Positions 43,803 to 56,755 of a stretch of 64,000 nt of DNA are shown here, in pieces. The stretch comes from a virus. The stretch covers positions 94,799 through 158,798 of IMG/VR virus record IMGVR_UViG_3300002835_000015, one strand, 5' to 3'. Every line of letters starts with the position of its first letter. The first letter of the stretch is position 1. The position numbers and the translations under genes are program-made. The notes under the pieces were generated by a model, which was not told the DNA's origin, made no database searches, and was given only the letters and a program-made list of their open reading frames with translations.

Positions 43803-43811
43803 AATCATCCT

Positions 43812-44633: not shown

Positions 44634-44656
44634 GCTGTATCTCCTTCGGATACATA

Positions 44657-44665
44657 GATATACAC
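44657..44665 (-). promoter_or_regulatory. GTGTATATC motif upstream of HNH gene
   Basis: Weak member of the GTGTATA set, 24 bp before the HNH start. Confidence 0.22.
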
Positions 44666-44671
44666 CAAATG

Positions 44672-44929
44672 TCATCTTTTTGATGATACTGTACTATATT
44701 TTCTTTGTTCTGGCGGAAAATCGTACCATTGACCATTTTCATGTTGATAAAAAACTTTGTTTACGTTAGGATCATACGCCATTAAACAGTATTGTACCGG
44801 ATAAACTACCTTTGTCAACTCTTTTTGTTGAGTCAACTCTGGGATTTTTATATTCCCACTTTGATAATCTTTTACACCATTATAGGCCAACCCTAACAGG
44901 GCAATAAGCACACCAACCCATTGTAGCAT
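44672..44929 (-). CDS. Small membrane-anchored protein
   Basis: Start taken at MLQWVGVLIALLGL (AAGGA 8 nt upstream); longer starts exist. 85 residues: one transmembrane helix, then PVQYCLMAYDPNVNKVFYQHENGQWY. Two promoter-like sites lie inside the frame, so a shorter product is possible. Confidence 0.62.
   Translation of the reverse strand: MLQWVGVLIALLGLAYNGVKDYQSGNIKIPELTQQKELTKVVYPVQYCLMAYDPNVNKVFYQHENGQWYDFPPEQRKYSTVSSKR
44791..44818 (-). promoter_or_regulatory. Internal promoter-like site
   Basis: TTGACA, 16-bp spacer, TACAAT inside gene 44672. May be fortuitous. Confidence 0.35.
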
Positions 44930-44947
44930 TGTTCCGTTCCTTGTCAA
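44920..44947 (-). promoter_or_regulatory. Promoter-like site at the start of 44672
   Basis: TTGACA, 16-bp spacer, TACAAT followed by GGGTTGGTGTG, similar to the box after the sites at 39513 and 40459. Confidence 0.45.
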
Positions 44948-45006
44948 GACCCGCTTCTCATCCATAGAGTATTTATCGGTCAAAAGGCCCGACCAACTTT
45001 AGAAAA

Positions 45007-45090
45007 TCCTAAACCCTTACTCTGCAACACTTTACGACAAATCGCCGCGGCCCGCCTTGATGCAAAGTCTTATGCACCAAGGACTTATGG
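45007..45090 (-). repeat. Family A element, copy 4
   Basis: Ends 5 bp before the stop of 45095; core GCCGCGGCCCGCC. Confidence 0.85.
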
Positions 45091-45094
45091 CTAT

Positions 45095-45334
45095 TCAATC
45101 ATCATCCCGTGAAAGTTCCCACCCTGCGGCCCTAACTATACTTTTTGTAGCGATTACATTAGTTTTAGGAGTAGCACTAATATAATCTCTATATCCCTGT
45201 TCATCCACATAAAAGTGCTCGTCGATAGTATCGAACTTATTTGTTAGCAACAAACCACAAATAGCCGCTTCTAGAGCATTAGGTTGAGACAGAATAACTT
45301 CTAGTGTGCCGCTCTTTACATAGTATTTAGCCAT
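45095..45334 (-). CDS. Small unknown protein
   Basis: 79 residues from MAKYYVKSGTLEV (GGGAG upstream), resembling small phage proteins that begin KYYVKSG.LEVI. Overlaps 45337. Confidence 0.68.
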   Translation of the reverse strand: MAKYYVKSGTLEVILSQPNALEAAICGLLLTNKFDTIDEHFYVDEQGYRDYISATPKTNVIATKSIVRAAGWELSRDDD

Positions 45335-45336
45335 GA

Positions 45337-45570
45337 TCAACTCCCTAAAGAAATAACTACGGTATTATCATACTCACCAAAGTCTAAATCAACGATGAAG
45401 TCATTATCATCCAGAATAGACTCTAGTGTTTCTTGGCTAATCAAAGTGTCAGTATTAGTACCAAAACTAACGTCACTATTACAAATAGCATCCATTACAT
45501 CGCTATAGTTCAACTTATTATGTTCGCAGACTTCTCGTAGGTCGAGATATGTCCAAGCATAACTTTTCAT
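45337..45570 (-). CDS. Small acidic protein
   Basis: 77 residues, acidic (DDNDFIVDLDFGEYDN). Middle gene of the 46304-promoter operon. Confidence 0.62.
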   Translation of the reverse strand: MKSYAWTYLDLREVCEHNKLNYSDVMDAICNSDVSFGTNTDTLISQETLESILDDNDFIVDLDFGEYDNTVVISLGS

Positions 45571-45577
45571 ATTATCC

Positions 45578-46285
45578 TCAGTGTGATGGAAACAACACGT
45601 TAGCCAAACCCTTGACGCACAAGTTACAGTCTACACTACCCTCGGTCGGTGTGCAAGTCACAACGCCACGACCACGACGGATTTCGGGGCAAGTGATAAA
45701 CTTTGTATCATTCAGCACAACCAGTTTAGGTAGACTCTTACGCCACACTTCCGCCGCTGCTTTACGCTTAGGACGTTTCTTGGCAATCTTTTCGTCGCTA
45801 TCGCACCACGCGAACAGTTTGAAACCTTGAGCCTTTGCCTCATTCATATCATTATCATTATGAACACTGGCATATACATTCATATACTTTTCCATAGCCA
45901 CAAGCCGACTATCATAGATATGAGTATAAAACCACATATCGGGCAGACTAGTACCATCGGCAAGAATACTCTCACAAGCCCACGTTACATTAGCAACATA
46001 GTCAAGGTCGAGTTGACCATCCTTGAACCAATCACCACGCTCATGCCAACGAATAGACTTCTCTTTACGAATCGCTTCCAGAATCATCGCTCTAATACGA
46101 TTCTTCTCGGTGATAAGATTTTGCATACCGGCAGGACGAACATTAGGATACATCTTCTCGGTTTGCTCAGCATAGCAACCGTCGCCCAAATAAACACAAG
46201 TAGGGGGACAAGTATCGCCAACGGGCCGACTCACGACCAAACAACCCTTGCCCAACTTATCGTTACCGTTTGCAACTTTCATCAT
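45578..46285 (-). CDS. Cys-rich phage protein (GCYAE family)
   Basis: 235 residues. The N-terminus NGNDKLGKGCLVVSRPVGDTCPPTC, then LGDGCYAEQ, is a recurring phage protein signature; further Cys at DCNLC near the C-terminus suggest metal binding. WACESILADGTSLPDMWFYTHIYD and KLFAWCDSDE are other conserved-looking blocks. Enzymatic activity unknown. First gene after the promoter at 46304. Confidence 0.78.
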   Translation of the reverse strand: MMKVANGNDKLGKGCLVVSRPVGDTCPPTCVYLGDGCYAEQTEKMYPNVRPAGMQNLITEKNRIRAMILEAIRKEKSIRWHERGDWFKDGQLDLDYVANVTWACESILADGTSLPDMWFYTHIYDSRLVAMEKYMNVYASVHNDNDMNEAKAQGFKLFAWCDSDEKIAKKRPKRKAAAEVWRKSLPKLVVLNDTKFITCPEIRRGRGVVTCTPTEGSVDCNLCVKGLANVLFPSH

Positions 46286-46303
46286 GTTTCTCCTATGCTA
46301 ACG

Positions 46304-46332
46304 ATTCTATACTACAGTATCGTCATTGTCAA
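46304..46332 (-). promoter_or_regulatory. Sigma-70-type promoter for the 45578-45095 operon
   Basis: -35 TTGACA, 17-bp spacer with GACGATA, -10 TAGAAT. Confidence 0.9.
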
Positions 46333-46371
46333 GAGAAAACTTTATAGGTTGTTGCAGAAAACGAAACAACT

Positions 46372-46452
46372 TGTAAGTGCTTGTGCTACAAGAGTTTACG
46401 TCGATCCCTGCGGCCCCGATTTGACGCAAAGTCTTATGATACAAGGATTTAG
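46372..46452 (-). repeat. Family A element, copy 5
   Basis: Abuts the 3' end of tRNA-Asp; core TGCGGCCCCG. Confidence 0.85.
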
Positions 46453-46526
46453 CGAGAATGACGGGACTCGAACCCGCAACCTCTAGCGTGACAGGCTAGC
46501 GATCTAACCGATTGATCTACATTCCC
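46453..46526 (-). tRNA. tRNA-Asp, anticodon GTC
   Basis: Acceptor GGGAATG/CATTCTC, anticodon loop CTGTCAC in stem CTAGC/GCTAG, T arm GCGGGTTCGAGTCCCGT, discriminator G. Confidence 0.95.
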
Positions 46527-46529
46527 AAA

Positions 46530-46601
46530 TAGCCCCAAGAGGAATCGAACCTCTAACTAGACTTTAGAAGAGTCCTGTTATCTCCATTTAACTATGGGGC
46601 C
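46530..46601 (-). tRNA. tRNA-Arg, anticodon TCT
   Basis: Acceptor GGCCCCA/TGGGGCT, anticodon loop CTTCTAA, T arm AGAGGTTCGATTCCTCT, discriminator A. Confidence 0.93.
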
Positions 46602-46609
46602 GTGTATCT

Positions 46610-46637
46610 ATTATATCGTACTCATTCAATGCCGCAA
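46610..46637 (-). promoter_or_regulatory. Promoter of tRNA-Arg/tRNA-Asp
   Basis: -35 TTGCGG, 16-bp spacer, consensus -10 TATAAT. Confidence 0.8.
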
Positions 46638-46662
46638 GCCCCCACGGTTTCCCGTGGAGGCT
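46637..46662 (-). terminator. GAAA-loop hairpin after 46691
   Basis: AGCC.CCACGG-GAAA-CCGTGG.GGCT, about 11 bp, 28 bp beyond the stop; no T tract follows. Possible terminator or processing hairpin. Confidence 0.55.
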
Positions 46663-46690
46663 GAAGCGGTTTGATGATAGAATCAGTCGA

Positions 46691-46951
46691 TCAAGCCTCG
46701 ACCGTTTCCTTTTCGGTCTTAGACTTCTTAGGATTCGCAGAGTCGCCCGCAGCCTCGGCAGTCACACCAGTAACACGGGCACGCCACACCTTATAACCCT
46801 GCTCAGAAAAACTCTTGACCTCGCCAGCCTTGACATTCGCATGAACATCACCGGGCAGGGCATCATTCAGGGCAGCGGTCAGACTCTCCACAACCGAATC
46901 ACGATCCAGTTCGCTGGCAACAATATCAACATTGAAAGTAAACTTTTGCAT
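46691..46951 (-). CDS. Small unknown protein with Lys/Glu-rich tail
   Basis: 86 residues from MQKFTFNVD (GGAG upstream). N-terminal alpha/beta part, C-terminal ANPKKSKTEKETVEA tail. Two tandem promoters upstream. Confidence 0.68.
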   Translation of the reverse strand: MQKFTFNVDIVASELDRDSVVESLTAALNDALPGDVHANVKAGEVKSFSEQGYKVWRARVTGVTAEAAGDSANPKKSKTEKETVEA

Positions 46952-46992
46952 AGTAATCTTCTCCAAAAAGTGTAATCGAACCAAGTAAAGTA

Positions 46993-47021
46993 ATCATACC
47001 CAAACCATCATCACTTGTCAA
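46993..47021 (-). promoter_or_regulatory. Proximal promoter of 46691
   Basis: -35 TTGACA, 17-bp spacer, -10 TATGAT. Confidence 0.85.
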
Positions 47022-47081
47022 GGTCTGATCCGAACTTTTCTTGTTTCGTGATCGGTCAGAGTCTTGTCGTGTGATGCTATC

Positions 47082-47109
47082 AGTATACCTTAGTTATCGG
47101 CACTGTCAA
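47082..47109 (-). promoter_or_regulatory. Distal promoter of 46691
   Basis: -35 TTGACA, 16-bp spacer with GCCGATAA, -10 TATACT. The ~65 bp to the proximal promoter holds no gene. Confidence 0.87.
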
Positions 47110-47140
47110 CCCCTTTCCATTAGTATTTTTCACGATTGTT

Positions 47141-47222
47141 CCTAAGTCGTTATACGATAAGAGTTTACGTTGAACCGCCGCGGCCGTCCTCGCCGCAAAG
47201 TCTTATGCGGCAAGGCTTTAGG
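47141..47222 (-). repeat. Family A element, copy 6
   Basis: Ends 1 bp from the stop of 47224; core CCGCGGCCG. Confidence 0.88.
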
Positions 47223-47223
47223 C

Positions 47224-47607
47224 TCAGGAGAGAAAACCCTCACAACCCTTGTCAACAAGGTCACGCAGCAGATTCTCAGCCGCTTCGGGAGTACTGAGAG
47301 TGACGCTGTTCTTTGTGCCTGGAGTTGCAGGAACGAAAGTATCGTACTTCCAGCCACCAACCAGAACATCGCTCCAATCCTTGGCTTCCTTCAAACCCCA
47401 TCCGGTGTGAGTTCGGATAGCCTTGATGCAGTAGATACGATTATCCAGAGTCATACCGCCAGTGATAGTAACGGTCTTGTTCCGATTCACCTTAAGAGCA
47501 TCCTCAAAGGCGATGGAGATCTTGTCGTAGATCGTATCATAGGATTCAATCTTAGAAAGAATCCACAGAGCCTCACGAACAGTCAGAGACACACTAATCA
47601 TATTCAA
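47224..47607 (-). CDS. Protein with L7/L12-C-terminal-like motif
   Basis: 127 residues. The stretch YCIKAIRTHTGWGLKEAKDW closely recalls the helix-turn of ribosomal protein L7/L12 C-terminal domain, which binds translation factors. An internal Met3 is also a good start. Could interact with translation GTPases; inferred only. Confidence 0.65.
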   Translation of the reverse strand: MNMISVSLTVREALWILSKIESYDTIYDKISIAFEDALKVNRNKTVTITGGMTLDNRIYCIKAIRTHTGWGLKEAKDWSDVLVGGWKYDTFVPATPGTKNSVTLSTPEAAENLLRDLVDKGCEGFLS

Positions 47608-48029
47608 ACCCTTTCTTCCAAAATGTATACTTGTTTGCCGTTAGTTAGTAAAGTGGCGTATTCGGTATTGTCCCAAATAAACTCATTGCTATCGCTTTCT
47701 CGTCGCCAGTGCGGATCTCTCAATGGATTGTAGTATAACTTCTCAAGATTGTCAATAGGTAGAGCAGGATGAAAATCCTTCCTCAACATAACTTCTTCAC
47801 ACCGTACCCACCCACTAACATCATGCACACCAGCCTCAAATACCTGTTTAGCCTTATTTGGCCTATTCCACAGGATACAACTCCTCATTTCCAACTGGTA
47901 TTCTTTGGGGTCATAATAATACACATCAACAGTTTCTCCACCCTGCTTAACTTTAACTTGCCAAAACATATAGTGAGGCCCGTTACTCAGGTGGAATCGC
48001 ACTTCGCCATGTAGTGGTTTCTGTTTCAT
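47604..48029 (-). CDS. Unknown protein, probably leaderless mRNA
   Basis: 141 residues from MKQKPLHGEV. ATG lies 6 nt after the -10 box. Trp/Tyr-rich (YMFWQVKVKQGG, WRRESDSNEFIWDN). Overlaps 47224 by 4 nt. Confidence 0.7.
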   Translation of the reverse strand: MKQKPLHGEVRFHLSNGPHYMFWQVKVKQGGETVDVYYYDPKEYQLEMRSCILWNRPNKAKQVFEAGVHDVSGWVRCEEVMLRKDFHPALPIDNLEKLYYNPLRDPHWRRESDSNEFIWDNTEYATLLTNGKQVYILEERV

Positions 48030-48035
48030 GTTTAT

Positions 48036-48064
48036 AGTATACCTTATCGGCAATCGTTTGTCAA
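48036..48064 (-). promoter_or_regulatory. Sigma-70-type promoter for 47604-47224
   Basis: -35 TTGACA, 17-bp spacer with GCCGATAA, -10 TATACT, then ATG after 6 nt. Confidence 0.9.
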
Positions 48065-48068
48065 GAAC

Positions 48069-48464
48069 CTAAAACTTTTCTGTGAAATCCGAAGAAATAC
48101 CCATTTGTTCTTGAACATCTCCGTCTGTCAGAGTATCACTATCCATCATAAAATCCAGATCATCAAAAAATATCTCAATATCCGGATTGTCGCACATTAA
48201 ACTAGCAAAGTTAAAAATCATAAAATAGGCTGTTGCCTGAACCCAAGAAGCACACAAACCAGAATGAAGTTCAATAGTATCCCTATTGTTATAAACGTAC
48301 TCAATACAAGACTGTTTTGTATTATCACTCATGTTATTCCATACAGGAATATCAAACTTATTAAGTTCATAAGATAACTCACCCTTAGATTGTGTCATCC
48401 AATCATTACGATAAGCATCATACGTTTCCTCAATCATGCCAATAGCAATCTTTCGACTTTGCAT
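48069..48464 (-). CDS. Unknown acidic protein
   Basis: 131 residues, helical N-terminus, acidic C-terminal part (FFDDLDFMMDSDTLTDGD). AAGGAG before ATG. Unknown. Confidence 0.7.
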   Translation of the reverse strand: MQSRKIAIGMIEETYDAYRNDWMTQSKGELSYELNKFDIPVWNNMSDNTKQSCIEYVYNNRDTIELHSGLCASWVQATAYFMIFNFASLMCDNPDIEIFFDDLDFMMDSDTLTDGDVQEQMGISSDFTEKF

Positions 48465-48482
48465 AAAATCTCCTTTTCGGGC

Positions 48483-48511
48483 ATTGTACCTTATCGACCA
48501 AACCTTGTCAA
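48483..48511 (-). promoter_or_regulatory. Sigma-70-type promoter for 48069
   Basis: -35 TTGACA, 17-bp spacer with GTCGATAA, -10 TACAAT. Confidence 0.9.
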
Positions 48512-48590
48512 TACCTTAAAAAATGTACCTATACTGGTCTAACGTCCAGTGGTGTTTTAGACTTCCACCGCTTATAAAGTACACATATTC

Positions 48591-48631
48591 TCGCTGACTA
48601 CAGCCACCCCAGCCAAATCCGTAGGATTAGG
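48591..48631 (-). repeat. Family B 3'-end element, copy 7
   Basis: TCCTAATCCTACGGATTTGG ... GTAGTCAGCGAG. Its TAA is the stop of the 28-codon frame at 48627. 48512-48590 otherwise holds only a small GTGG/CCAC hairpin. Confidence 0.62.
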
Positions 48632-48713
48632 AAAAACAATGTCGGCTTCCGCCATACTCGACCAACATTTCAGATAGCCTCTTTTGATATCATTGTGGCT
48701 ATCCCCGTCCATT
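48627..48713 (-). CDS. Possible 28-residue peptide
   Basis: MDGDSHNDIKRGYLKCWSEY...HCFS, right after the promoter at 48723 and ending exactly at family B copy 7. GGGA lies before ATG. Weak but positionally consistent. Confidence 0.4.
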
Positions 48714-48722
48714 GTTTCCCTA

Positions 48723-48751
48723 AGTATATCTCTATTATCGGGCGTTGTCAA
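48723..48751 (-). promoter_or_regulatory. Sigma-70-type promoter for the 28-residue frame
   Basis: -35 TTGACA, 17-bp spacer with CCCGATAA, -10 TATACT. Confidence 0.88.
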
Positions 48752-48769
48752 GAGTTTTCTTTAAAAAAT

Positions 48770-48850
48770 CCTAAATGGTTGAACCATAAGACTTTACGTC
48801 AAGTCTCTGTCGCCCCCCTTATCCTAAACTCTTGCGAGTAAAGGACTTAG
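48770..48850 (-). repeat. Family A element, copy 7
   Basis: The TAA of 48847 lies inside its last word. Confidence 0.85.
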
Positions 48851-49020
48851 GAGTTCTTATAAACTAGATCAACATACTTATCGACCAGTTCACTTACCGA
48901 TATCTCATGTAATCCAATCAACTCTTTAGCCTTGTCTACATTATGCTTATTTACAGCGGCCATTCTATTCTTGAAAAAACTAAGAATATAAATCATAGCC
49001 TTTGTACGATCTTCATTCAT
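48847..49020 (-). CDS. Small helical protein, 57 residues
   Basis: MNEDRTKAMIYILSFFKNRM... helical. ATGA-type overlap with 49017; stop inside family A copy 7. Confidence 0.65.
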   Translation of the reverse strand: MNEDRTKAMIYILSFFKNRMAAVNKHNVDKAKELIGLHEISVSELVDKYVDLVYKNS

Positions 49021-49271
49021 GATGGATAATCCTTTGGGTAATCGTTTTCTGGTCGTTTTGGTTTTGGCTGTCCCTCATATGGCATCCACCACGGAGCATC
49101 CATACGATCTACTATACCGGGACTTTCTTCACAAATCAAGATATGTTCACTTACCGGATCATCCTTATGAATCTCATACCTTCCCTGCCACACCCCAATA
49201 TACTCGCCAAAGTAATAAACCTTTTGGCCGTTGATGGGGCGACGAGGACCAAAAAAACTAATCCATTCCAT
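49017..49271 (-). CDS. Small Trp/Pro-rich protein
   Basis: 84 residues, beta-type (RPINGQKVYYFGEYIGVWQGRYE) with PWWMPYEGQPKPKRP; the family of small phage proteins with NGQ.VYYFG...VW.G..E is recurrent but unassigned. Confidence 0.68.
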   Translation of the reverse strand: MEWISFFGPRRPINGQKVYYFGEYIGVWQGRYEIHKDDPVSEHILICEESPGIVDRMDAPWWMPYEGQPKPKRPENDYPKDYPS

Positions 49272-49432
49272 TACTCACCCCCATAACTACGATATATCTC
49301 GTAGCATTTTTCGATAGTCTCATCAGACTCATCATCATTTTTTACAGAGATACCATTCTCATACTTATGAAACAGTTCGCTAAAAAGTCCGTAAAGTTTT
49401 CTTTCCTGTTGTCTACACTTTTCAATATTCAT
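49271..49432 (-). CDS. Small helical protein
   Basis: 53 residues from MNIEKCRQQE (GAGGGG upstream). Touches neighbours by one base on each side. Confidence 0.62.
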   Translation of the reverse strand: MNIEKCRQQERKLYGLFSELFHKYENGISVKNDDESDETIEKCYEIYRSYGGE

Positions 49433-49656
49433 TATTTTCCCCTCGTAATAATCAAACACATTGTACCAGTATCACTATCGGTATATCTCACAGTCTCATG
49501 AGGCCCGTAATACCAAGCATCATTCTTGGAGAAGTTGAATACAACCTCATCGGTCTTGAGTTGAGTATCATTATACCCACCCTCATACCCAAGAGTCAAT
49601 ACCCTCATATCACCGGGATAACCCTTCAACTGCTCAATCAGTTCATTAACGGTCAT
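49432..49656 (-). CDS. Small unknown protein
   Basis: 74 residues; TVNELIEQLKGYPGDMRVLTLGYEGGYND is a common phage protein opening with unknown role. Overlaps 49653. Confidence 0.7.
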   Translation of the reverse strand: MTVNELIEQLKGYPGDMRVLTLGYEGGYNDTQLKTDEVVFNFSKNDAWYYGPHETVRYTDSDTGTMCLIITRGK

Positions 49657-49913
49657 TCTTCATTCTCCGGAGGAAACATATTGTTCCAAGATTCATCATC
49701 GTTACCGCTCAACAGAATCTCACGCTGTTCAGCATTAAGATGAGGAAAGCACTGTTGAAGATAACCACCATTAAGCCACTCGTTAGCAGCACTCAGTTTA
49801 ACAGTGATACTAAACGGCTTAGCACTCATGGTGTAACCTGAAAAAGTAAGATTCTCACCATCAACCGTTCGGGTCACCTTATCACTCAGACAATACCGCT
49901 CAAAGCCAATCAT
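49653..49913 (-). CDS. Small unknown protein
   Basis: 86 residues; first gene of the 49935-promoter operon. C-terminus helical (LNAEQREILLSG...). Confidence 0.66.
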   Translation of the reverse strand: MIGFERYCLSDKVTRTVDGENLTFSGYTMSAKPFSITVKLSAANEWLNGGYLQQCFPHLNAEQREILLSGNDDESWNNMFPPENEE

Positions 49914-49934
49914 AGTTTTTCTCCTTGTGCTACC

Positions 49935-49963
49935 ATTCTACACTAGTATTATCGGCTTGTCAA
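49935..49963 (-). promoter_or_regulatory. Sigma-70-type promoter for the 49653-48847 operon
   Basis: -35 TTGACA, 17-bp spacer with GCCGATAA, -10 TAGAAT. Confidence 0.92.
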
Positions 49964-49981
49964 TAGGCTTTTCTTTAGCAA

Positions 49982-50065
49982 TCCTAAGTTGTTGGTGGGT
50001 AAGACTTTACGACGAATGTGGCCGCGTCAGTTTGTCCTAAACTCTTAGAGGATAAGCATTTAGAG
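49982..50065 (-). repeat. Family A element, copy 8
   Basis: Follows the tRNA-like gene at 50112 by ~45 bp; core GGCCGCGTC; flanked by AGCGAACC as in copy 9. Confidence 0.83.
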
Positions 50066-50111
50066 CGAACCCCTTTTGAATATGGTATACCGGCTGTTAA
50101 TGGATCGACTT

Positions 50112-50187
50112 AGTGGATAGATGGATTCGAACCATCAACTCCTCTTGTATTTAAACAAGTGGAACTCTACCTTTGAGTTATACCCAC
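50112..50187 (-). tRNA. Unusual tRNA, anticodon uncertain (TAA or AAA region)
   Basis: Acceptor GTGGGTA/TATCCAC, D arm ACTC/GAGT, T arm GATGG-TTCGAAT-CCATC are normal. The anticodon arm is a perfect CTTGT/ACAAG hairpin with a 6-nt loop TTAAAT, or CTTG/CAAG with an 8-nt loop; neither gives a standard 7-nt loop. Leu(TAA) would need the 8-nt form. Confidence 0.6.
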
Positions 50188-50567
50188 CGATAGTTTTACA
50201 AATAGTGTCCGGTATCACGCACTATTCAACCCTAACGGCTCTCGCAGTCTTAGGTTTCTATCCGACCCCTGTTTGTTACCAGCGAACCTTTTACGCCCCG
50301 ATTCTTACCCTCACCAGTATGGAGCGACCATACCGATTTGGAACCGCCCACGCTCACTTTCGTCCAGTTGCGAACTGGCTCAGGCAAGAGGCGACGGCTA
50401 CTGGTTGTATTGCTCGTGGTGAGGATGCCATCCCTCATAGATTGGTATCACTATACAGTATATAACCCTACTGTCAACCCCGGCGATGATTACGTCTTCG
50501 CTGAACGGGAGGTTTATCGTGATAGGTTATCCAATCTAGTCCCGTCGCATGGACCCACGGATGTTTG
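50188..50567 (-). ncRNA. Candidate structured non-coding RNA upstream of the tRNA
   Basis: 380 bp with no credible gene, clearly more GC-rich than its surroundings. Minus-strand hairpins include CCAGTT-CGC-AACTGG, GTATGG-TCGC-TCCATAC, GGATG-GCATCC and AATAGTG/CACTATT, with conserved-looking unpaired ACGAAAGTGAG and GGTGAGGGTAAG. A promoter (50450) lies inside; the RNA would run into the tRNA. The setting (phage, next to tRNAs) recalls large ornate RNAs such as GOLLD or ROOL, but no match is claimed. Confidence 0.5.
50450..50477 (-). promoter_or_regulatory. Promoter within the structured-RNA region
   Basis: -35 TTGACA, 16-bp spacer, -10 TATAGT; would start a ~260-nt leader ending at the tRNA. 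Confidence 0.72.
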
Positions 50568-50762
50568 TTAGATTTTTTGCCTTCGTCGTATTTCGTCAGA
50601 GCAATAGCAGATTTCATCAGCATAGTAGCCATAGTTCGGCTGGTCAGGCCATGCTTTCAAAACTTCCCTACAATCTTTAATCGTAAAAAGAAGTTCAGAA
50701 TAAGTCATCTTCTTAACCTTTTTAGCGTAAGCCGCATGATCCATAAACTTAGTGGCAAACAT
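50568..50762 (-). CDS. Small unknown protein
   Basis: 64 residues from MFATKFMDH (AGGAG upstream); the earlier ATG lies 1 nt after the -10 box and cannot be in the transcript. Cys pair near the end (ICYCSDEIRRR). Confidence 0.68.
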   Translation of the reverse strand: MFATKFMDHAAYAKKVKKMTYSELLFTIKDCREVLKAWPDQPNYGYYADEICYCSDEIRRRQKI

Positions 50763-50781
50763 CTTTGTCTCCTGTGTCATG

Positions 50782-50810
50782 ATTATACACTCCTATTATC
50801 GGTCTGTCAA
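50782..50810 (-). promoter_or_regulatory. Sigma-70-type promoter for 50568
   Basis: -35 TTGACA, 17-bp spacer with ACCGATAA, consensus -10 TATAAT. Confidence 0.93.
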
Positions 50811-50840
50811 GAGCATATTCTGTAGAAAAAACTTTTTGAT

Positions 50841-50920
50841 GCAAGTCTATAGGAGATAAGAGTTTACGTCGAATCCGGCCGCGGCGGTTTGCCCTAAACT
50901 CTTGGTAGTCAAGAACTTAG
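50841..50920 (-). repeat. Family A element, copy 9
   Basis: Only copy in which the central arms AAGAGTTTA and TAAACTCTT pair perfectly; core CCGGCCGCGGCGG. Confidence 0.88.
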
Positions 50921-50935
50921 AGCGAACCAGCCTTT

Positions 50936-51439
50936 TTAGGCTTCTACCTCATCATCAGAGAAAAACTCTGCCAGATTATAATCTTCCCATACCTGAACAG
51001 GAATCAACCCCTTATCATCCCCATATTCAGTATACAAATCATCTCCATCCTTCCAAATGCCACAATAACCCATACCCGGTTCAAAATAGGACGCAATCAC
51101 CCTAAAACCCCTCAATACCAGTTCCTCATACAGTCCAATAGGCGGCGACCACGCACTATCAAAACTCATAGTGGCCTCATTATCCACAATGGTAGGATTC
51201 AATCCATGAACTTCTCCGTTATCACTACCAATATCCCATTTAGTTCCCCAGTTATTTACACACCAGTTATACCAATAATCAGGATTAGATTCGTCGGTAA
51301 TAAGTTCGCCCTGCTCATCTTTTGGTACGGGCAAATAATGTTCACAAGCCTTACCTTCCTTATAGGCAAGAACAAACTCCATAACCTTAGACCGATCCTC
51401 ATGGCTAATCGTCAACTTATTCAAACACCAGTTAGGCAT
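50936..51439 (-). CDS. DUF1281/Api92-like protein
   Basis: 167 residues. MPNWCLNKLTISHEDRSKVMEF, NWCVNNWGTKWDIG and MSFDSAWSPPIGLYEEL are the hallmark blocks of the family found in phages and plasmids (ferredoxin-like fold). Function unproven. Confidence 0.85.
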   Translation of the reverse strand: MPNWCLNKLTISHEDRSKVMEFVLAYKEGKACEHYLPVPKDEQGELITDESNPDYWYNWCVNNWGTKWDIGSDNGEVHGLNPTIVDNEATMSFDSAWSPPIGLYEELVLRGFRVIASYFEPGMGYCGIWKDGDDLYTEYGDDKGLIPVQVWEDYNLAEFFSDDEVEA

Positions 51440-51458
51440 AACTGTCTCCTTTAGTGCG

Positions 51459-51486
51459 ATTCTACTCTTATCTTATCGGTTGTCAA
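51459..51486 (-). promoter_or_regulatory. Sigma-70-type promoter for 50936
   Basis: -35 TTGACA, 16-bp spacer with ACCGATAAG, -10 TAGAAT. Confidence 0.9.
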
Positions 51487-51500
51487 GAGTCTAAACTTTT

Positions 51501-51540
51501 GGCTGACTATACCCACTCAGCCCAAATCCGTAGGATTACC
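51501..51540 (-). repeat. Family B 3'-end element, copy 8
   Basis: GGTAATCCTACGGATTTGGG ... ATAGTCAGCC, between tRNA-Glu and the promoter at 51459. Here an in-frame stop breaks the coding reading seen in other copies, arguing for a DNA/RNA role. Confidence 0.6.
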
Positions 51541-51553
51541 TGATACAAGCCAA

Positions 51554-51625
51554 TGACCCCACGGAGAATCGAACTCCGATCTCCACCGTGAAAGGGTGGC
51601 GTACTAGCCGTTATACAATGGGGCC
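51554..51625 (-). tRNA. tRNA-Glu, anticodon TTC
   Basis: Acceptor GGCCCCA/TGGGGTC, anticodon loop CTTTCAC in stem CCACC/GGTGG, T arm CGGAGTTCGATTCTCCG. Lies 7 bp after the stop of 51633, so probably co-transcribed. Confidence 0.95.
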
Positions 51626-51632
51626 AATATAT

Positions 51633-51788
51633 TCACCAGACTACCTTCTCAATCCTGAGATCACTACCATACTTATCTTTAGCCTTTCTCCAAGCGTCAT
51701 ACTGGCTAAACGATACCACATAGCCCACAAATCGGCCATGTTGGAACACTCTCCACGACATTCCTGCGAGACATTGGGTTGTAGTCAT
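51633..51788 (-). CDS. Small unknown protein, 51 residues
   Basis: MTTTQCLAGMSWRVFQHGRFVGYV... AGGAG upstream. Followed directly by tRNA-Glu. Confidence 0.62.
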   Translation of the reverse strand: MTTTQCLAGMSWRVFQHGRFVGYVVSFSQYDAWRKAKDKYGSDLRIEKVVW

Positions 51789-51807
51789 AAACTTTCTCCT
51801 TAGTCGC

Positions 51808-51835
51808 ATTATACACATTATCGACCAGTTGTCAA
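51808..51835 (-). promoter_or_regulatory. Sigma-70-type promoter for 51633/tRNA-Glu
   Basis: -35 TTGACA, 16-bp spacer with GTCGATAA, consensus -10 TATAAT. Confidence 0.9.
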
Positions 51836-51853
51836 TACCATCTTTAGTTTTTC

Positions 51854-51934
51854 TCTAAATCCTTATCCCATAAGACTTTATATCAAATCGGGCCGCCCAT
51901 CATTGTCCTAAACTCTTATTCACAAACACTTTAG
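51854..51934 (-). repeat. Family A element, copy 10
   Basis: Overlaps the stop codon of 51931; core GGGCCGCCC. Confidence 0.86.
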
Positions 51935-52086
51935 GTCAACACAATATCATCCCCCGATACATAATACTGATCGTCAGCATGATTCAATACAAGATACATA
52001 GGAGGATTAGTTTTATCCGATACGTCAATAATAACAACATCCTCATCCTGCATAATATCATGAACAATATTGCCAATCTTATACAT
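51931..52086 (-). CDS. Small acidic beta protein, 51 residues
   Basis: MYKIGNIVHDIMQDEDVVIID... like a small SH3-type barrel. Coupled to 52086. Confidence 0.62.
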   Translation of the reverse strand: MYKIGNIVHDIMQDEDVVIIDVSDKTNPPMYLVLNHADDQYYVSGDDIVLT

Positions 52087-52553
52087 CATACCCTCTTATA
52101 AACTGTAGTGATAATATCTTGATTATTCTTATAGAACGTCCGCACCTTCACAGACGATTTAATCTGATCTTTCGGATACTTCTGAATATATTCCCAAGCA
52201 TCCTTAATATGTTCGCTTGTCCAAATCCGGTCAACAAACTCACCAACCCGTACAGTAAACGCAATATCAACAGTTCCGTTCTTGCTAATCACCAGAAACA
52301 AGAACACAATATGCTTCTGTTCATCAGTTATATCATGATACTTACTAGGGTCAATCCATTGCAAGTCCTGTTGCTTTTTACATTCGACCAAACATCCCAA
52401 CAAATCATTGGAATAATCATACAGAATATGGCTATCTCTTTTCCAGCCACTATGCCGTGTGAGAATATCATGAAGCATCTGCTCTTTTCCTCCCCTACCT
52501 TTTAGGTTAATGGAAGAAATAGCCTCTACGTTGATACTGCTAATAGGACACAT
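52086..52553 (-). CDS. Possible PD-(D/E)xK nuclease-like protein
   Basis: 155 residues. ILYDYSNDLLGCLVECKKQ places an acidic residue, then Glu-Cys-Lys on a strand (D...ExK pattern) as in restriction-type nucleases; HIVFLFLVIS and VDIAFTVRVG are further strands. Only suggestive. Confidence 0.58.
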   Translation of the reverse strand: MCPISSINVEAISSINLKGRGGKEQMLHDILTRHSGWKRDSHILYDYSNDLLGCLVECKKQQDLQWIDPSKYHDITDEQKHIVFLFLVISKNGTVDIAFTVRVGEFVDRIWTSEHIKDAWEYIQKYPKDQIKSSVKVRTFYKNNQDIITTVYKRV

Positions 52554-52586
52554 GATTTCACCAAGTGTGATTGGTTAGCAGTCGCC

Positions 52587-52615
52587 AATATACTGTCAGT
52601 ATCGGGTTTTGTCAA
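52587..52615 (-). promoter_or_regulatory. Sigma-70-type promoter for 52086-51931
   Basis: -35 TTGACA, 17-bp spacer with CCCGATAC, -10 TATATT. Confidence 0.88.
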
Positions 52616-52633
52616 TAGAATGCTTGAGATTTT

Positions 52634-52722
52634 TCTAAGTCTATGGCAGATAAGACTTTACGTCAATCCCATGCGGAGTGCCTCGCCCTAAACTCTTGGC
52701 TTGCAAGAACTTAGAGCGAGGT
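52634..52722 (-). repeat. Family A element, copy 11
   Basis: Flank AGAGCGAG; the gene at 52745 ends 23 bp away, one of the looser spacings. Confidence 0.84.
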
Positions 52723-52744
52723 CACTTCACCACCACGAGAAATA

Positions 52745-53152
52745 TCAGAAGAGAAGGTTTGCCAAACCCGTCTTGAATGCTGCACCAGCCAACAGCGGCC
52801 TACGGCAGTTCACGGTACGTTCAGCGTAGAAGTTGCGAATCTTACCGTCCGCAGTCTGGCACGTTACCAGATGATTGCTACGCTGAAAGTTGCTATCGTT
52901 GCGACGATATGCACTACGAGCATTCAGCCTGCGAATAGCATTATCGTCCAGCACATGAACACTCAGCACCTTTGCCAGATAACGCTCAGGGTCACCAGCA
53001 TTAGGCTGGAGATATTCAAAGTTATAGAACTCTCCGGCCTTTGCCGTTGACAGCGACCCATGAGCACCACCATAGATGCCATAAGCAGCAAACATAGCAA
53101 GGCAGCAAACAACAACCGTAGCAATCGAACCAAAAAGAAGAACATCGTTCAT
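52745..53152 (-). CDS. Membrane-anchored protein, unknown
   Basis: 135 residues from MNDVLLFGSIATVVVCC: one N-terminal helix, then GEFYNFEYLQPNAGDPERYLAKVLSV and ARSAYRRNDSNFQRSNHLVTCQT..KIRNFYAERT, a pattern recurring in phage membrane proteins. Function unknown. Confidence 0.74.
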   Translation of the reverse strand: MNDVLLFGSIATVVVCCLAMFAAYGIYGGAHGSLSTAKAGEFYNFEYLQPNAGDPERYLAKVLSVHVLDDNAIRRLNARSAYRRNDSNFQRSNHLVTCQTADGKIRNFYAERTVNCRRPLLAGAAFKTGLANLLF

Positions 53153-53198
53153 AAAAATCCCTTTCGTGTAGTGAAGACCAACCAAACCAGATAGCCCC

Positions 53199-53226
53199 AG
53201 TATACATCTATTATCGGCATTGTCAA
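53199..53226 (-). promoter_or_regulatory. Sigma-70-type promoter for 52745
   Basis: -35 TTGACA, 16-bp spacer with GCCGATAA, -10 TATACT. Confidence 0.92.
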
Positions 53227-53254
53227 GCCCTATCCTTGAAGAAATCTTTTTGCC

Positions 53255-53336
53255 ACAAGTCCTTATGCCACAACAGTTTGTGAAAAACGCCTGCGGCCAC
53301 CCATGCTGCAAAGTCTTATGCAGCAAGGGTTTATGG
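53255..53336 (-). repeat. Family A element, copy 12
   Basis: Ends 1 bp from the stop of 53338; core TGCGGCCACCC. Confidence 0.87.
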
Positions 53337-53337
53337 C

Positions 53338-53571
53338 TCATTCAAAATCCACGAAGATAATCTGATTGTATCCTCGCGGCTTCACGGTATAACCATCACC
53401 ATAGTCGTAGGTATCGGCCTTTACCGCAGTCATATTCGCCAGAGACTTAGCCTGTCGAATAACGCTACGCTGAGACTCAGCATTACGAGGCTGAAACTCA
53501 TACCGCTTCACCCAACCATAGTTAGCCTCACCGCCAAACGTATCAGTAACCGTCACAACACACTTCGTCAT
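53338..53571 (-). CDS. Small unknown protein
   Basis: 77 residues from MTKCVVTVTDTFGGEANYGWVKR; this opening recurs in phage proteins. GGAG upstream. Unknown. Confidence 0.7.
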   Translation of the reverse strand: MTKCVVTVTDTFGGEANYGWVKRYEFQPRNAESQRSVIRQAKSLANMTAVKADTYDYGDGYTVKPRGYNQIIFVDFE

Positions 53572-53593
53572 TTTCACTGTCTCCTTTGGTTTT

Positions 53594-53621
53594 ATCTTAT
53601 CACACAATCAAACGTTGTCAA
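53594..53621 (-). promoter_or_regulatory. Sigma-70-type promoter for 53338
   Basis: -35 TTGACA, 16-bp spacer, -10 TAAGAT; overlaps the end of 53618, with no family A copy in between. Confidence 0.8.
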
Positions 53622-53860
53622 GCATACGGATTCAAGATATCAGCAGCCCAATCCTCAATACGGTTACCAGCAGCACCACGGCTACTGTCTTTCCTGATAG
53701 ATATCTTGCGAACATCATCCGCAAAAAACGTACCACATTCTCCCATGCTACAGTTGTCGAGGGTAACAATAAGAAACTCGTTACCATTGTCGATAACAGC
53801 ATGAGACATGGTGCCAAGAGCATCAGCAGCAGCGAGTCTCATTTCCTGAAGGGTAATCAT
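53618..53860 (-). CDS. Small unknown protein
   Basis: 80 residues from MITLQEMRLAAADALG; two-part alpha/beta protein with CSMGECG. Coupled to 53862 (stop and start 1 nt apart). Confidence 0.68.
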   Translation of the reverse strand: MITLQEMRLAAADALGTMSHAVIDNGNEFLIVTLDNCSMGECGTFFADDVRKISIRKDSSRGAAGNRIEDWAADILNPYA

Positions 53861-53861
53861 G

Positions 53862-54071
53862 TTATTTCCAGTTGTTACGGCGACATTCTTCAGCCCATTC
53901 AGCATCTTCACGACGAGTACGATCATTGTACCCATAACCACCATTAGTCAGGTAGTTATCTTTCACAGCATCATAGCCATCATCACTATCCACAAACGGC
54001 TCGCAATGTTCCTTGCAACGCGAGCAAATATCACCACGATAGATCGTCACACCACAGCAGTCACTCAACAT
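53862..54071 (-). CDS. Small zinc-ribbon-type protein
   Basis: 69 residues; DCCGVTIYRGDICSRCKEHCEP gives a CC...CxxC...C ribbon. Tail acidic, then Arg-rich. Possible metal-binding regulator. Confidence 0.72.
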   Translation of the reverse strand: MLSDCCGVTIYRGDICSRCKEHCEPFVDSDDGYDAVKDNYLTNGGYGYNDRTRREDAEWAEECRRNNWK

Positions 54072-54103
54072 TTTTCACTCTCTTTCTTACTCTTTATATC
54101 GGT

Positions 54104-54132
54104 ATTCTACCAGCCTAAACTTTAGAAGTCAA
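54104..54132 (-). promoter_or_regulatory. Class 2 promoter for 53862-53618
   Basis: -35 TTGACT, 17-bp spacer starting TCTAAAG, -10 TAGAAT, followed by CCGATATAAAG. Confidence 0.85.
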
Positions 54133-54150
54133 GCATATTTTTTTGAAAAT

Positions 54151-54231
54151 CGTAAGTTGTTGTGTCTCAATAGTTTGCGTCAAATGCGGCCGCTGGGCCT
54201 TGGCGTAAACTCTTACGCATCAAGGCTTTAG
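54151..54231 (-). repeat. Family A element, copy 13
   Basis: Ends 1 bp from the stop of 54233; core GCGGCCGCTGGGCC. Confidence 0.87.
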
Positions 54232-54232
54232 A

Positions 54233-54298
54233 TCACTTGGTCTTAGAGTCGTTCATTTTCTTTAAGGCTTCCACAATCATAGGGATTCCAGAAAACAT
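54233..54298 (-). CDS. Tiny peptide, 21 residues
   Basis: MFSGIPMIVEALKKMNDSKTK. Last of a chain of four tiny genes; stop abuts family A copy 13, as real operon ends do. Confidence 0.42.
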   Translation of the reverse strand: MFSGIPMIVEALKKMNDSKTK

Positions 54299-54301
54299 TT
54301 T

Positions 54302-54376
54302 TTACCCCATAAGAAAAGTTGCGATACAACCACAAACAAACGCCACAGACAGGACAATCTTATCCTTAATGGTCAT
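54302..54376 (-). CDS. Tiny membrane peptide, 24 residues
   Basis: MTIKDKIVLSVAFVCGCIATFLMG, one hydrophobic helix; 3-nt spacing to the next gene. Confidence 0.42.
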   Translation of the reverse strand: MTIKDKIVLSVAFVCGCIATFLMG

Positions 54377-54377
54377 T

Positions 54378-54482
54378 TTATTTCCTTAATGGAAAAACAA
54401 GATCACAAACAAACCAAGCACAACCAAGGCCAACAACAAATCCCACACTGAAACTATTCCAGTCTAGATATATATCGGCCAT
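54378..54482 (-). CDS. Tiny membrane protein, 34 residues
   Basis: MADIYLDWNSFSVGFVVGLG... one helix. Ends 1 nt before the next start. Confidence 0.45.
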   Translation of the reverse strand: MADIYLDWNSFSVGFVVGLGCAWFVCDLVFPLRK

Positions 54483-54497
54483 CCGTAGCCCTTTCCT

Positions 54498-54641
54498 TTA
54501 GTTATACTTCATCCGAATCATCATCTGAACAATCTCAGGACGAGTCATGATACACTCCCACATATACCAATCACAGAAGTTGAGCCAACCCTGCTCAGTA
54601 ATCTGCCCACGCTGAAACATAGTCCACATGGTTTGATACAT
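54498..54641 (-). CDS. Small Trp/Met-rich protein, 47 residues
   Basis: MYQTMWTMFQRGQITEQGWLNF... amphipathic. First gene of the 54666-promoter operon. Confidence 0.58.
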   Translation of the reverse strand: MYQTMWTMFQRGQITEQGWLNFCDWYMWECIMTRPEIVQMMIRMKYN

Positions 54642-54665
54642 TTTACCACCGTTTTCCTTATTAGC

Positions 54666-54694
54666 ATTCTACACTACTATTATCGACTTGTCAA
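54666..54694 (-). promoter_or_regulatory. Sigma-70-type promoter for the tiny-gene operon
   Basis: -35 TTGACA, 17-bp spacer with GTCGATAA, -10 TAGAAT. Confidence 0.91.
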
Positions 54695-54713
54695 GCCCCA
54701 GTCTTCAATATTT

Positions 54714-54793
54714 CTAAGTCCTTACTGCACAACAGTTTGCGTCAAACGCTGGCGGCGGGCCTTGGCGTAAAGTGTTACGCTTCAAGGCTTTAG
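54714..54793 (-). repeat. Family A element, copy 14
   Basis: Ends 1 bp from the stop of the 18-codon frame at 54795; core GGCGGCGGGCC. Confidence 0.87.
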
Positions 54794-54794
54794 G

Positions 54795-54851
54795 TCACCA
54801 CCGGCCAGTACCATACCATTTCAATAGTTCATAGACATTTATTGCATACAT
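54795..54851 (-). CDS. Possible tiny peptide, 18 residues
   Basis: MYAINVYELLKWYGTGRW, its ATG next to the stop of 54851, its stop abutting family A copy 14. Supported by position only. Confidence 0.35.
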   Translation of the reverse strand: MYAINVYELLKWYGTGRW

Positions 54852-55156
54852 CACACCACCATGCCTTCCATAAAAGGATATTCCTTACCATTTACAGTCA
54901 CGAACCACTCATACTTGTGCTGATGCACACGAACGGGGCTATACTGGTTGATTCTATCTTTGGTAGTGCTGGTTTGCCATCCCCCCGTTTGCAGGGTATA
55001 GGTATTGTCAGCATGAATCTTTACCACATAGGTACTGTGGAGCAAAATACCAACCGATCCACATGGTAGGATTTCAGCGTAGGTGTTGTTTCCTACCTTG
55101 CGGCTATCCTTATTCCGCTTGCCACGAACCATAGAAACTGCTTCGGCGTGAGTCAT
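54851..55156 (-). CDS. Small conserved-looking phage protein
   Basis: 101 residues. MTHAEAVSMVRGKRNKDSRKVGNNTY, then SVGILLHSTYVVKI and LQTGGWQTSTTKDRINQYSP: a beta-rich pattern recurring in phages, role unknown. Confidence 0.78.
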   Translation of the reverse strand: MTHAEAVSMVRGKRNKDSRKVGNNTYAEILPCGSVGILLHSTYVVKIHADNTYTLQTGGWQTSTTKDRINQYSPVRVHQHKYEWFVTVNGKEYPFMEGMVV

Positions 55157-55186
55157 ATTCTTTCCTTTGGTGGTGATGATGTTAGG

Positions 55187-55215
55187 ATTCTACGCTATAA
55201 AACTTATTCTGTCAA
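55187..55215 (-). promoter_or_regulatory. Sigma-70-type promoter for 54851
   Basis: -35 TTGACA, 17-bp spacer, -10 TAGAAT; the -35 overlaps the stop of 55212. Confidence 0.87.
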
Positions 55216-55403
55216 GTCTCAACAAAATCAGTAAGTTCATTCTGATTGAAAAGCCCAAACTGGCCATTCTCATCCTTGACGAAAAACATGATCAGCGGCT
55301 TTCCGTTTTCGATGATAACGTCGAAACTGTTGACCACAACCTTAGTACCGGAAAGAGTCTTTGCGGTCATGGTTACTACGTTGGTGATATCATTGGTGAT
55401 CAT
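55212..55403 (-). CDS. Small beta-rich protein
   Basis: 63 residues (TAKTLSGTKVVVNSFDVIIENGKPLIMFFVKD). Unknown. Confidence 0.65.
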   Translation of the reverse strand: MITNDITNVVTMTAKTLSGTKVVVNSFDVIIENGKPLIMFFVKDENGQFGLFNQNELTDFVET

Positions 55404-55429
55404 GTTTTCTCCTTTGTTCTTATATCGAC

Positions 55430-55458
55430 ATTATACAGTCCGTTCTTTAGGCTGTCAA
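55430..55458 (-). promoter_or_regulatory. Class 2 promoter for 55212
   Basis: -35 TTGACA, 17-bp spacer with CCTAAAG, -10 TATAAT, then GTCGATATAAG. Confidence 0.9.
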
Positions 55459-55485
55459 CAAGAAAATAAAAGATTCTTGATTTGT

Positions 55486-55566
55486 TCTAAGGTCTTGAAT
55501 CTAAAGAGTTTACGTCAAGTCTGTGCGGCCCGATTCGTCGTAAAGTCTTATGCGACAAGTAGTTAG
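55486..55566 (-). repeat. Family A element, copy 15
   Basis: Here it faces the plus-strand HNH gene rather than a stop codon, probably because that gene was inserted; core GTGCGGCCCG. Confidence 0.84.
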
Positions 55567-55625
55567 ATTATTATGATATTGGTGTATAAACCATAGTCTA
55601 CATTTCCATACCGGAGACGAGTACT

Positions 55626-56024
55626 ATGGCAAAATATGATCCACAAGAATATCAGCGAAATAAAGAGTCTTACAAGATTAGAAACCAAAGATACAAGAGC
55701 AAACATAGGTCTATGGTGAACCAAAAACAATCGGAATATAGATCAAAAACAAAAGATAAAATCAATCAGTATTCTAAAAGTCGTAGAAATAAAATAAGGA
55801 TTCTATATGATGAATACATGAAAGATAAATCTTGCTTACATTGTGGATATGATGATTCTCGCTCTCTCGTATGGCATCATACCGACCCATCACAAAAGAA
55901 AAATGGAGTTGTTCAGTTGGTTGGTAAAAAACACGGGTGGGATACTATCATGACAGAAATAAACAAATGTATATGCTTATGCCATAATTGTCATAATATA
56001 TTACATAATCACCAGTCACCATAG
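55626..56024 (+). CDS. Plus-strand HNH endonuclease
   Basis: 132 residues: Lys/Arg/Tyr-rich N-terminal helix, then CLHCGYDDSRSLVWHHTDPSQK and CICLCHNCHNILH (zinc-HNH core). Inserted against the local direction; its 3' end overlaps 56009. Confidence 0.87.
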   Translation: MAKYDPQEYQRNKESYKIRNQRYKSKHRSMVNQKQSEYRSKTKDKINQYSKSRRNKIRILYDEYMKDKSCLHCGYDDSRSLVWHHTDPSQKKNGVVQLVGKKHGWDTIMTEINKCICLCHNCHNILHNHQSP

Positions 56025-56308
56025 TCATCCATTGAAGGATTATAGTATTCATCTTCGGCCCAGCCTACTGACCCCATAGCGCTGTCGTGATCTCCATCCA
56101 TGCTGTCATCATAGTGATCATCGTAATCATCATCGTGGTCATCATCCAACTGGCTCTCAATCTCATGATCGGCATCGGCATGATAGGCTGAACTATCCTC
56201 GCCATAGAAAGCGTCATGGTAATCGTAGTTATAATCGTCAAAGTGGCTGCTCATAGTATCTTCCTCATAAGAGTTTTCGGGATCGAACAAAGGATCAGGA
56301 TGACTCAT
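56009..56308 (-). CDS. Asp/His/Tyr-rich acidic protein
   Basis: 99 residues from MSHPDPLFD, with long acidic Asp/His/Tyr runs (about 25-85). Extreme charge suggests DNA mimicry or metal binding; neither is shown. Confidence 0.66.
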   Translation of the reverse strand: MSHPDPLFDPENSYEEDTMSSHFDDYNYDYHDAFYGEDSSAYHADADHEIESQLDDDHDDDYDDHYDDSMDGDHDSAMGSVGWAEDEYYNPSMDDYGDW

Positions 56309-56312
56309 CTTT

Positions 56313-56381
56313 TTACTCTTTTGCAATGGTACAGAAACAAAGCCCAACATAGGCCACAACGAACAGCATAGCACTAAACAT
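56313..56381 (-). CDS. Tiny membrane peptide, 22 residues
   Basis: MFSAMLFVVAYVGLCFCTIAKE, one helix, between 56390 and 56009 in the same operon. Confidence 0.42.
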   Translation of the reverse strand: MFSAMLFVVAYVGLCFCTIAKE

Positions 56382-56389
56382 AGTTTTTG

Positions 56390-56599
56390 TCAAGCCTCCA
56401 CGATTTCGGGATAAATATCTTCGACCAGAATCTCAGCCAGACCCGTAACCTCTGCCCAATCCATCGGGTGGCAGTCGGGTTCGTCAATCGGCTCTACCAT
56501 AGGCTCGATGATACCCTGCTCTGCAAGGTAACTCAGTTGGCTGTTTGCTTCGTCTAAGTCGTGAAACATTTTCGAGCCCTCGTTGGTTGTGATCATCAT
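56390..56599 (-). CDS. Small acidic protein, leaderless
   Basis: 69 residues from MMITTNEGSKMFHDLDEANSQL. ATG 6 nt after the -10 box. Unknown. Confidence 0.68.
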   Translation of the reverse strand: MMITTNEGSKMFHDLDEANSQLSYLAEQGIIEPMVEPIDEPDCHPMDWAEVTGLAEILVEDIYPEIVEA

Positions 56600-56605
56600 G
56601 CCACG

Positions 56606-56633
56606 ATTATACACATAATATCGGCCAATGCAA
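56606..56633 (-). promoter_or_regulatory. Sigma-70-type promoter for 56390-56009
   Basis: -35 TTGCAT, 16-bp spacer with GCCGATAT, consensus -10 TATAAT, then ATG after 6 nt. Confidence 0.85.
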
Positions 56634-56676
56634 GTGGAGATATGAATCTTTTTCCTTACAATGCTGCAAGTTTCGC

Positions 56677-56754: not shown

Positions 56755-56755
56755 G

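Follow-up and report, generated by a model that had tools for sequence, protein, structure and literature searches.

A conserved, modular array of predicted structured RNAs enclosing an anticodon-less tRNA-like part in a phage genome

The stretch of phage DNA analysed here, called the window, comprises 64,000 nucleotides (nt), positions 94799-158798 of the 158,798-base IMG/VR record IMGVR_UViG_3300002835_000015. On its minus strand, a non-coding gap of about 380 bp lies between an open reading frame (ORF) of 70 amino acids (50568-50780) and a tRNA-like gene (50111-50188). The gap has a GC content of 0.51-0.535 against 0.38-0.43 in the flanks. A preliminary description made from the letters alone had read it as a single ornate RNA that continues into an abnormal tRNA. 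Compensatory changes among homologues bear out a structured non-coding RNA that is continuous with an abnormal tRNA; judged from these sequences, the structured RNA is a conserved, new, four-part member of a modular RNA array, and the idea of one ornate RNA gives way to a string of independent, exchangeable modules. In the window the order on the minus strand is module A, a linker, module C and module D, with a tRNA-like part inside D. The full RNA extends from about 50567 to about 50084, some 28 bases beyond the boundary at 50112 noted earlier, since module D completes its pseudoknot with a 3′ strand that sits beyond the tRNA-like part.

The absence of a gene from this compositionally distinct region, already suggested in the preliminary description, is confirmed by the homologues, among which no reading frame is conserved across the region and which differ from one another in indels of one base and in entire blocks that have been swapped. 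A protein-coding region was thus rejected, since the overlapping ORFs are not conserved. The strong hairpins reported earlier are present in the predicted folds. The folding energy of the whole stretch does not go beyond chance (z -0.97 and -0.66) and is uninformative, and that of single modules is modest (z -1.8 for module A and -2.75 for module C), so it is the compensatory changes among homologues, and not the folding energy, that provide a beyond-chance signal for RNA. Upstream, a TTGACA-N17-TATAAT sequence at 50810-50782 is likely the promoter of both the small ORF and the array, as read from its sequence, and the same kind of promoter sits immediately before the arrays in relatives. It lies too near the annotated ATG, and translation therefore probably begins at 50762. 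The ORF probably shares a transcript with the array in this phage; it is not conserved as a neighbour, and other arrays are found without it.

Related phage contigs were fetched through the neighbouring proteins, and blastn found parts of the RNA in many of them, with variable content between conserved blocks. Scans of IMG/VR with patterns based on what is conserved in modules C, A, E1 and D enlarged the set to about 100 contigs with related arrays; a few loose-pattern matches are due to chance (e.g. L084, L097 and L115), as were most rows of one late scan, which a structure filter removed. The arrays consist of closed folds strung together, with AATACAA or a close variant of it between them. 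AATACAA itself occurs once per 271 nt in arrays compared with once per 4731 nt when both strands of all loci are counted, a 17-fold difference. Among 68 distinct arrays bearing module C we counted, by sequence tags and with some arrays cut by contig ends, about 45 orders and at least 22 module types. Most large records hold one array. In the predicted folds most of the modules tested are closed by 5-10 pairs between their own ends; such terminal closure was not seen by simple minimum free energy folding for modules E1, E6, E13 and D. Other arrays have additional tRNA-like modules (E3 and E9) whose anticodon arms are oversized.

Module A is predicted to form a four-way junction with a closing stem (P1), a short P2, a long P3-P6 arm that carries a pseudoknot, and a fourth arm (P7). 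Its covariance model, built from 28 seed sequences that include the window copy, finds matches in about 90 arrays with E-values down to 1e-41. Changes on both sides were found at 36 of the 43 pairs, and 94.6% of the pairs are standard, as against 33-43% with slid partners and 83% after shuffling, in an alignment that was fitted to the model and hence leans toward the structure. The six-pair pseudoknot was not part of that model; it is paired in 99.1% of cases, and one of its pairs is CG in 40, GC in 29 and UA in 1, that is, swapped in about 30 of 71 sequences. An all-pairs covariation test, run on a structure-free alignment against a simulated null, retained four pairs at E<=0.05, namely this CG/GC pair, one pair of P4 and two that are mostly non-pairing and resemble alignment artefacts; so few pass because the sequences are close relatives. 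In divergent copies the loop of P7 is T-loop-like (UUUGAUU in L091, UGCGAUU or UGCGAAU in others), from which module A may be a much altered tRNA fold. The TTGACA/TATAGT string that had been proposed as an internal promoter does exist; its promoter role was rejected, as it forms helices P5/P6 of module A and is exact in only 30 of 70 distinct A modules. The others have TTGCCA or a different arm and still pair, and promoters, where present, are upstream of the entire array.

In module C the closing stem CCAG/CUGG is near-invariant over the 68 distinct copies. The pairs of the 3′ hairpin are standard in all of them and show compensatory changes (A-U to G-C, U-A to C-G or A-U, and C-G to U-A or A-U) beneath a conserved loop, GGnnCGUAAAW, which reads GGGGCGUAAAA in the window, and the middle arms are swapped as blocks. 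In one contig that is otherwise different (L122:11504-11680), module C stands alone after a promoter and before an ordinary tRNA-Gln, and it can therefore exist outside an array. Module D relies on a longer-range contact: in all 22 distinct copies a hairpin loop is complementary over 7-8 nt to a downstream strand, which is found 5-6 nt after D, or 75-97 nt after it when a tRNA-like structure is inserted. Three covarying versions of this pseudoknot occur, AUACCGG/CCGGUAU, AGUACCGA/UCGGUACU and AGUACCAC/GUGGUACU. As the D loop in the window pairs with a strand beyond the tRNA-like part, the latter lies inside the D pseudoknot; an abnormal tRNA-like part does adjoin the RNA as first described, but as an insertion in module D and in a non-decoding form.

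The tRNA-like part scores 45.7 bits against the Rfam tRNA model (RF00005), with acceptor, D- and T-arms all present, and ARAGORN calls it 'tRNA-???' with a 2-nt anticodon. All seven acceptor pairs and all five T-stem pairs are formed in the window copy and covary in relatives, and across seven copies this pairing is kept through several compensatory changes, one of them (L169) having two unpaired acceptor positions in a simple count. The anticodon arm does not have the usual 17 nt with a 7-nt loop and an anticodon. It is 22 nt long in the window (CCACUUGU UUAAAU ACAAGAGG), and reads CCACUC AGAGAU GAGAGG in L044 and CCACA CUAUA UGUGG in L169. Both the size and the sequence of the loop differ among relatives (UUUAAAUA/UUAAAU, AGAGAU, GAAAA and CUAUA), and among those compared L129 alone is able to form a 7-nt anticodon loop. 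A shorter type, apparently without a D-arm, fills the same slot of module D in L167, L175 and L222, which thus receives at least three kinds of tRNA-like structure. Given an anticodon arm of no fixed size or sequence, we regard the inserted part as tRNA-like and not as a decoding tRNA.

The modules are exchanged independently of each other. In 64 arrays that have both, the identities of modules A and C are nearly uncorrelated (rho 0.06); in 12 pairs of arrays the A modules are at least 98% identical and the C modules less than 75%, and nine pairs show the reverse. Phages whose flanking DNA is 91-97% identical have different arrays, and the array of this phage shares just short pieces with that of L003, whose flanking DNA is 92-97% identical to its own.

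In order to evaluate whether the RNA belongs to a known family, the array region was compared with the Rfam models, including GOLLD, ROOL, RNase P, introns and transfer-messenger RNA (tmRNA), and it gave a tRNA match only, even with an E-value limit of 10. This agrees with the preliminary description, in which the RNA could be matched to neither GOLLD nor ROOL. The GOLLD covariance model had no match in the window region at E<=10, in 14 related loci at the gathering threshold or in seven loci at E<=5, and ROOL had none in the window region or the related loci searched. The RNase P RNA, group I intron and tmRNA models likewise had no match within the window region or the related arrays; a weak alpha_tmRNA match (14.2 bits, E 3.3) falls outside the array of L034. 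A separate, ordinary phage tmRNA with the tag GETRFALAA lies at 28498-28848 of the window, beside a tRNA-Ser. No module matched the named phages, which gave four chance-level 33-nt matches to Listeria phages (E 0.3) and, for L122, its ordinary tRNA-Gln only. In bacterial genomes the exact core is absent, and 84,980 species genomes yielded a single contig (L139); it belongs to a metagenome-assembled genome of Alphaproteobacteria from Lake Lanier, and its array is followed by the same phage gene as other arrays, so that it looks like a mis-binned phage contig. The structural proteins are mostly without a PHROG family, and the DNA polymerase shares about 30% identity with those of scattered phages. 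No description of modular or tRNA-like phage RNA arrays was found in the open-licence literature. As far as these comparisons of sequence go, modules A, C and D are RNA folds without an Rfam counterpart; pseudoknots and tRNA-like structures are of known kinds, and the cassette organisation is new to present knowledge.

Two known systems share parts of this design. Viral tRNA-like structures and tmRNA also combine a tRNA acceptor and T-arm with a pseudoknot, whereas the array has no coding part, consists of several modules, and encloses its tRNA-like part within D. The RNA antitoxins of type III toxin-antitoxin systems are tandem pseudoknotted units with short A-rich linkers, and there the short units, each of about 35 nt, repeat almost unchanged next to a toxin gene; the array modules, in contrast, measure 50-170 nt and are mutually unrelated.

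Sequence comparison establishes the folds with their pseudoknots and linkers; it also establishes that modules are exchanged independently and that the tRNA-like part lacks an anticodon. Concerning function, we tentatively favour a mosaic non-coding phage RNA whose exchangeable modules might act in trans as decoys or effectors against host proteins that handle tRNA or other RNA. A single transcript would carry autonomous structured modules joined by single-stranded AAUACAA linkers, which would keep the folds independent and could also be sites of transcript cutting. By offering such a host protein, perhaps an anticodon nuclease or a different defence ribonuclease, a fold that is tRNA-like or of another kind, each module would serve as a decoy or inhibitor; modules would be reshuffled as cassettes among related phages, and gained and lost in an arms race. 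This reading appears the most likely because of the module exchange, the anticodon-less tRNA-like parts and the existence of phage RNA counter-defence, as reported for RNA anti-CRISPRs, a counter-defence at the RNA level (PMC10651486), and for phage tRNAs that act against tRNA-cleaving defence (PMC11555353). A phage RNA resembling a host RNA could be the principle common to the array and such decoys; the array differs from these precedents in having no anticodon to restore and in carrying multiple unrelated folds per predicted transcript. That the acceptor pairing and the T-arm are retained although the anticodon arm is free to vary also favours a decoy. Several points weigh against it: apart from the likeness to tRNA, the modules have no resemblance to any known decoy or host RNA; the shuffling could be neutral recombination at short shared linkers; and the stringent covariation test passed only four pairs, just two of them in the proposed structure.

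Among the alternatives, the modules could together form a multimer, a cage or an RNA-protein scaffold, as an ornate RNA of the GOLLD or ROOL kind engaged in holding tRNAs or in virion assembly. By analogy GOLLD would be the nearest known RNA in spirit, with no model match: it too is a large structured phage RNA near tRNAs whose function is likewise without assignment, and it sometimes holds tRNAs in its linker region (PMC12286853), as the array holds an embedded tRNA-like part. ROOL, similarly, is a pseudoknot-rich phage RNA near tRNA islands. Yet ROOL is one continuous fold, and the array, in contrast to both, is made of interchangeable, shuffled modules with an inserted tRNA-like part that lacks an anticodon; the free order and number of modules between close relatives is hard to square with a fixed assembly, and together with the missing Rfam matches makes this explanation unlikely. 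A precursor from which host RNase P, RNase E or others cut separate small RNAs at the linkers, including a working unusual tRNA, would account for AAUACAA between closed folds and for module C being the first element of a tRNA transcription unit in L122. We consider it quite improbable, as the tRNA-like part lacks an anticodon loop of 7 nt, conserves no sequence in the loop that it has, and is closed over by the D pseudoknot.

A role in cis, as a leader controlling the gene that follows, is very unlikely. The next ORF follows module C by 20-36 nt in a minority of arrays, with no room for a promoter, but across 72 arrays there are more than 40 kinds of downstream gene as defined by the first eight residues, and the RNA therefore does not serve one gene; moreover, a promoter-like site precedes the next ORF in 44 of these arrays, and in the window this ORF has its own TTGACA/TAGAAT site. 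An element acting as DNA only, as a recombination hot spot or as protein-binding cruciforms, is the least likely alternative, for although cassettes are exchanged and AATACAA is also found in promoter tails and at the starts of gene leaders, many positions tolerate G-U pairs, only in RNA do T-loops, acceptor stems and pseudoknots make sense, and the orientation in the window matches transcription.

A broader form of the decoy reading, which is possible though more speculative, is that of a combinatorial locus that would mix dozens of unrelated folded RNAs on one transcript, many of them mimics of tRNA without an anticodon, and so disable host defences that handle RNA; with the same reserve, such a locus could be viewed as an anti-defence island made of RNA cassettes in place of genes. 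A transcript put together from interchangeable RNA modules and one standard linker would in itself be a new organisation. If the modules are decoys, each would point to a host protein and the locus would be a natural library of RNA inhibitors, and with anticodon-less tRNA mimics the use of tRNA-like RNAs by phages would become directly testable. The coordinates of the features are given in Table 1.

Table 1. Positions of the array components and of further elements in the window and in related contigs
Feature	Position	Strand	Basis or remark
Promoter-like TTGACA-N17-TATAAT, upstream of ORF and array	50782..50810	-	Direct reading of sequence
Small ORF, 70 amino acids, upstream of array	50568..50780	-	Start may be the ATG at 50762
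Module A, predicted four-way-junction RNA	50413..50560	-	Covariance model match 130.5 bits, E 2e-35 (copy among the seed sequences)
Module A pseudoknot, 5′ strand AUAACC	50525..50530	-	Pairs with 50462-50467
Module A pseudoknot, 3′ strand GGUUAU, in P6 loop	50462..50467	-	Pairs with 50525-50530
Inter-module linker CAAUACAA	50405..50412	-	AATACAA enrichment in arrays
Module C, P1 CCAG/CUGG, arm ACCG/CGGU, exchangeable arms	50279..50404	-	68 distinct copies compared
Module D, P1 GAUAG/CUAUC, two hairpins	50189..50262	-	Loop AUACCGG (50209-50215) pairs with 50087-50093
tRNA-like structure inside module D	50112..50187	-	22-nt anticodon arm, no anticodon
Module D pseudoknot, 3′ strand CCGGUAU	50087..50093	-	Complementary to loop 50209-50215
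Pistol ribozymes, related contigs	L026:10038-10100, L030:8551-8614, L029:9339-9401, L047:5102-5164, L048:5432-5494		
Family D3 repeat, six copies	38110-51549		E.g. 48583-48640, 51492-51549

Other elements were noticed in the window and in the related contigs. In related phages, Pistol self-cleaving ribozymes lie close to tRNA clusters and follow the RNA array at a distance of about 2-4 kb downstream; none was found in the window. About 18 diverged intergenic copies of an element of some 84 nt are scattered over positions 40730-59309 (e.g. 49979-50075 and 50836-50932), often immediately upstream of a promoter. Each has four spaced copies of a motif like TAAGACTTTACG, in inverted pairs around a GC-rich centre, and from its sequence it looks like a DNA-binding iteron set or a terminator. 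A second intergenic repeat, family D3, reads CTGACTA...CCAAATCCGTAGGATTAGG and has a small hairpin. In L143 (15780-19639, minus strand; about 75780-79639 of the record) the DNA polymerase (phrog_405) is divided over two ORFs that lie about 660 bp apart, which may be due to the insertion of an intron or a homing gene. Finally, the protein encoded at 60532-61188 of the window weakly matches a family of RNA polymerase sigma factors (phrog_1740, E 6e-6).
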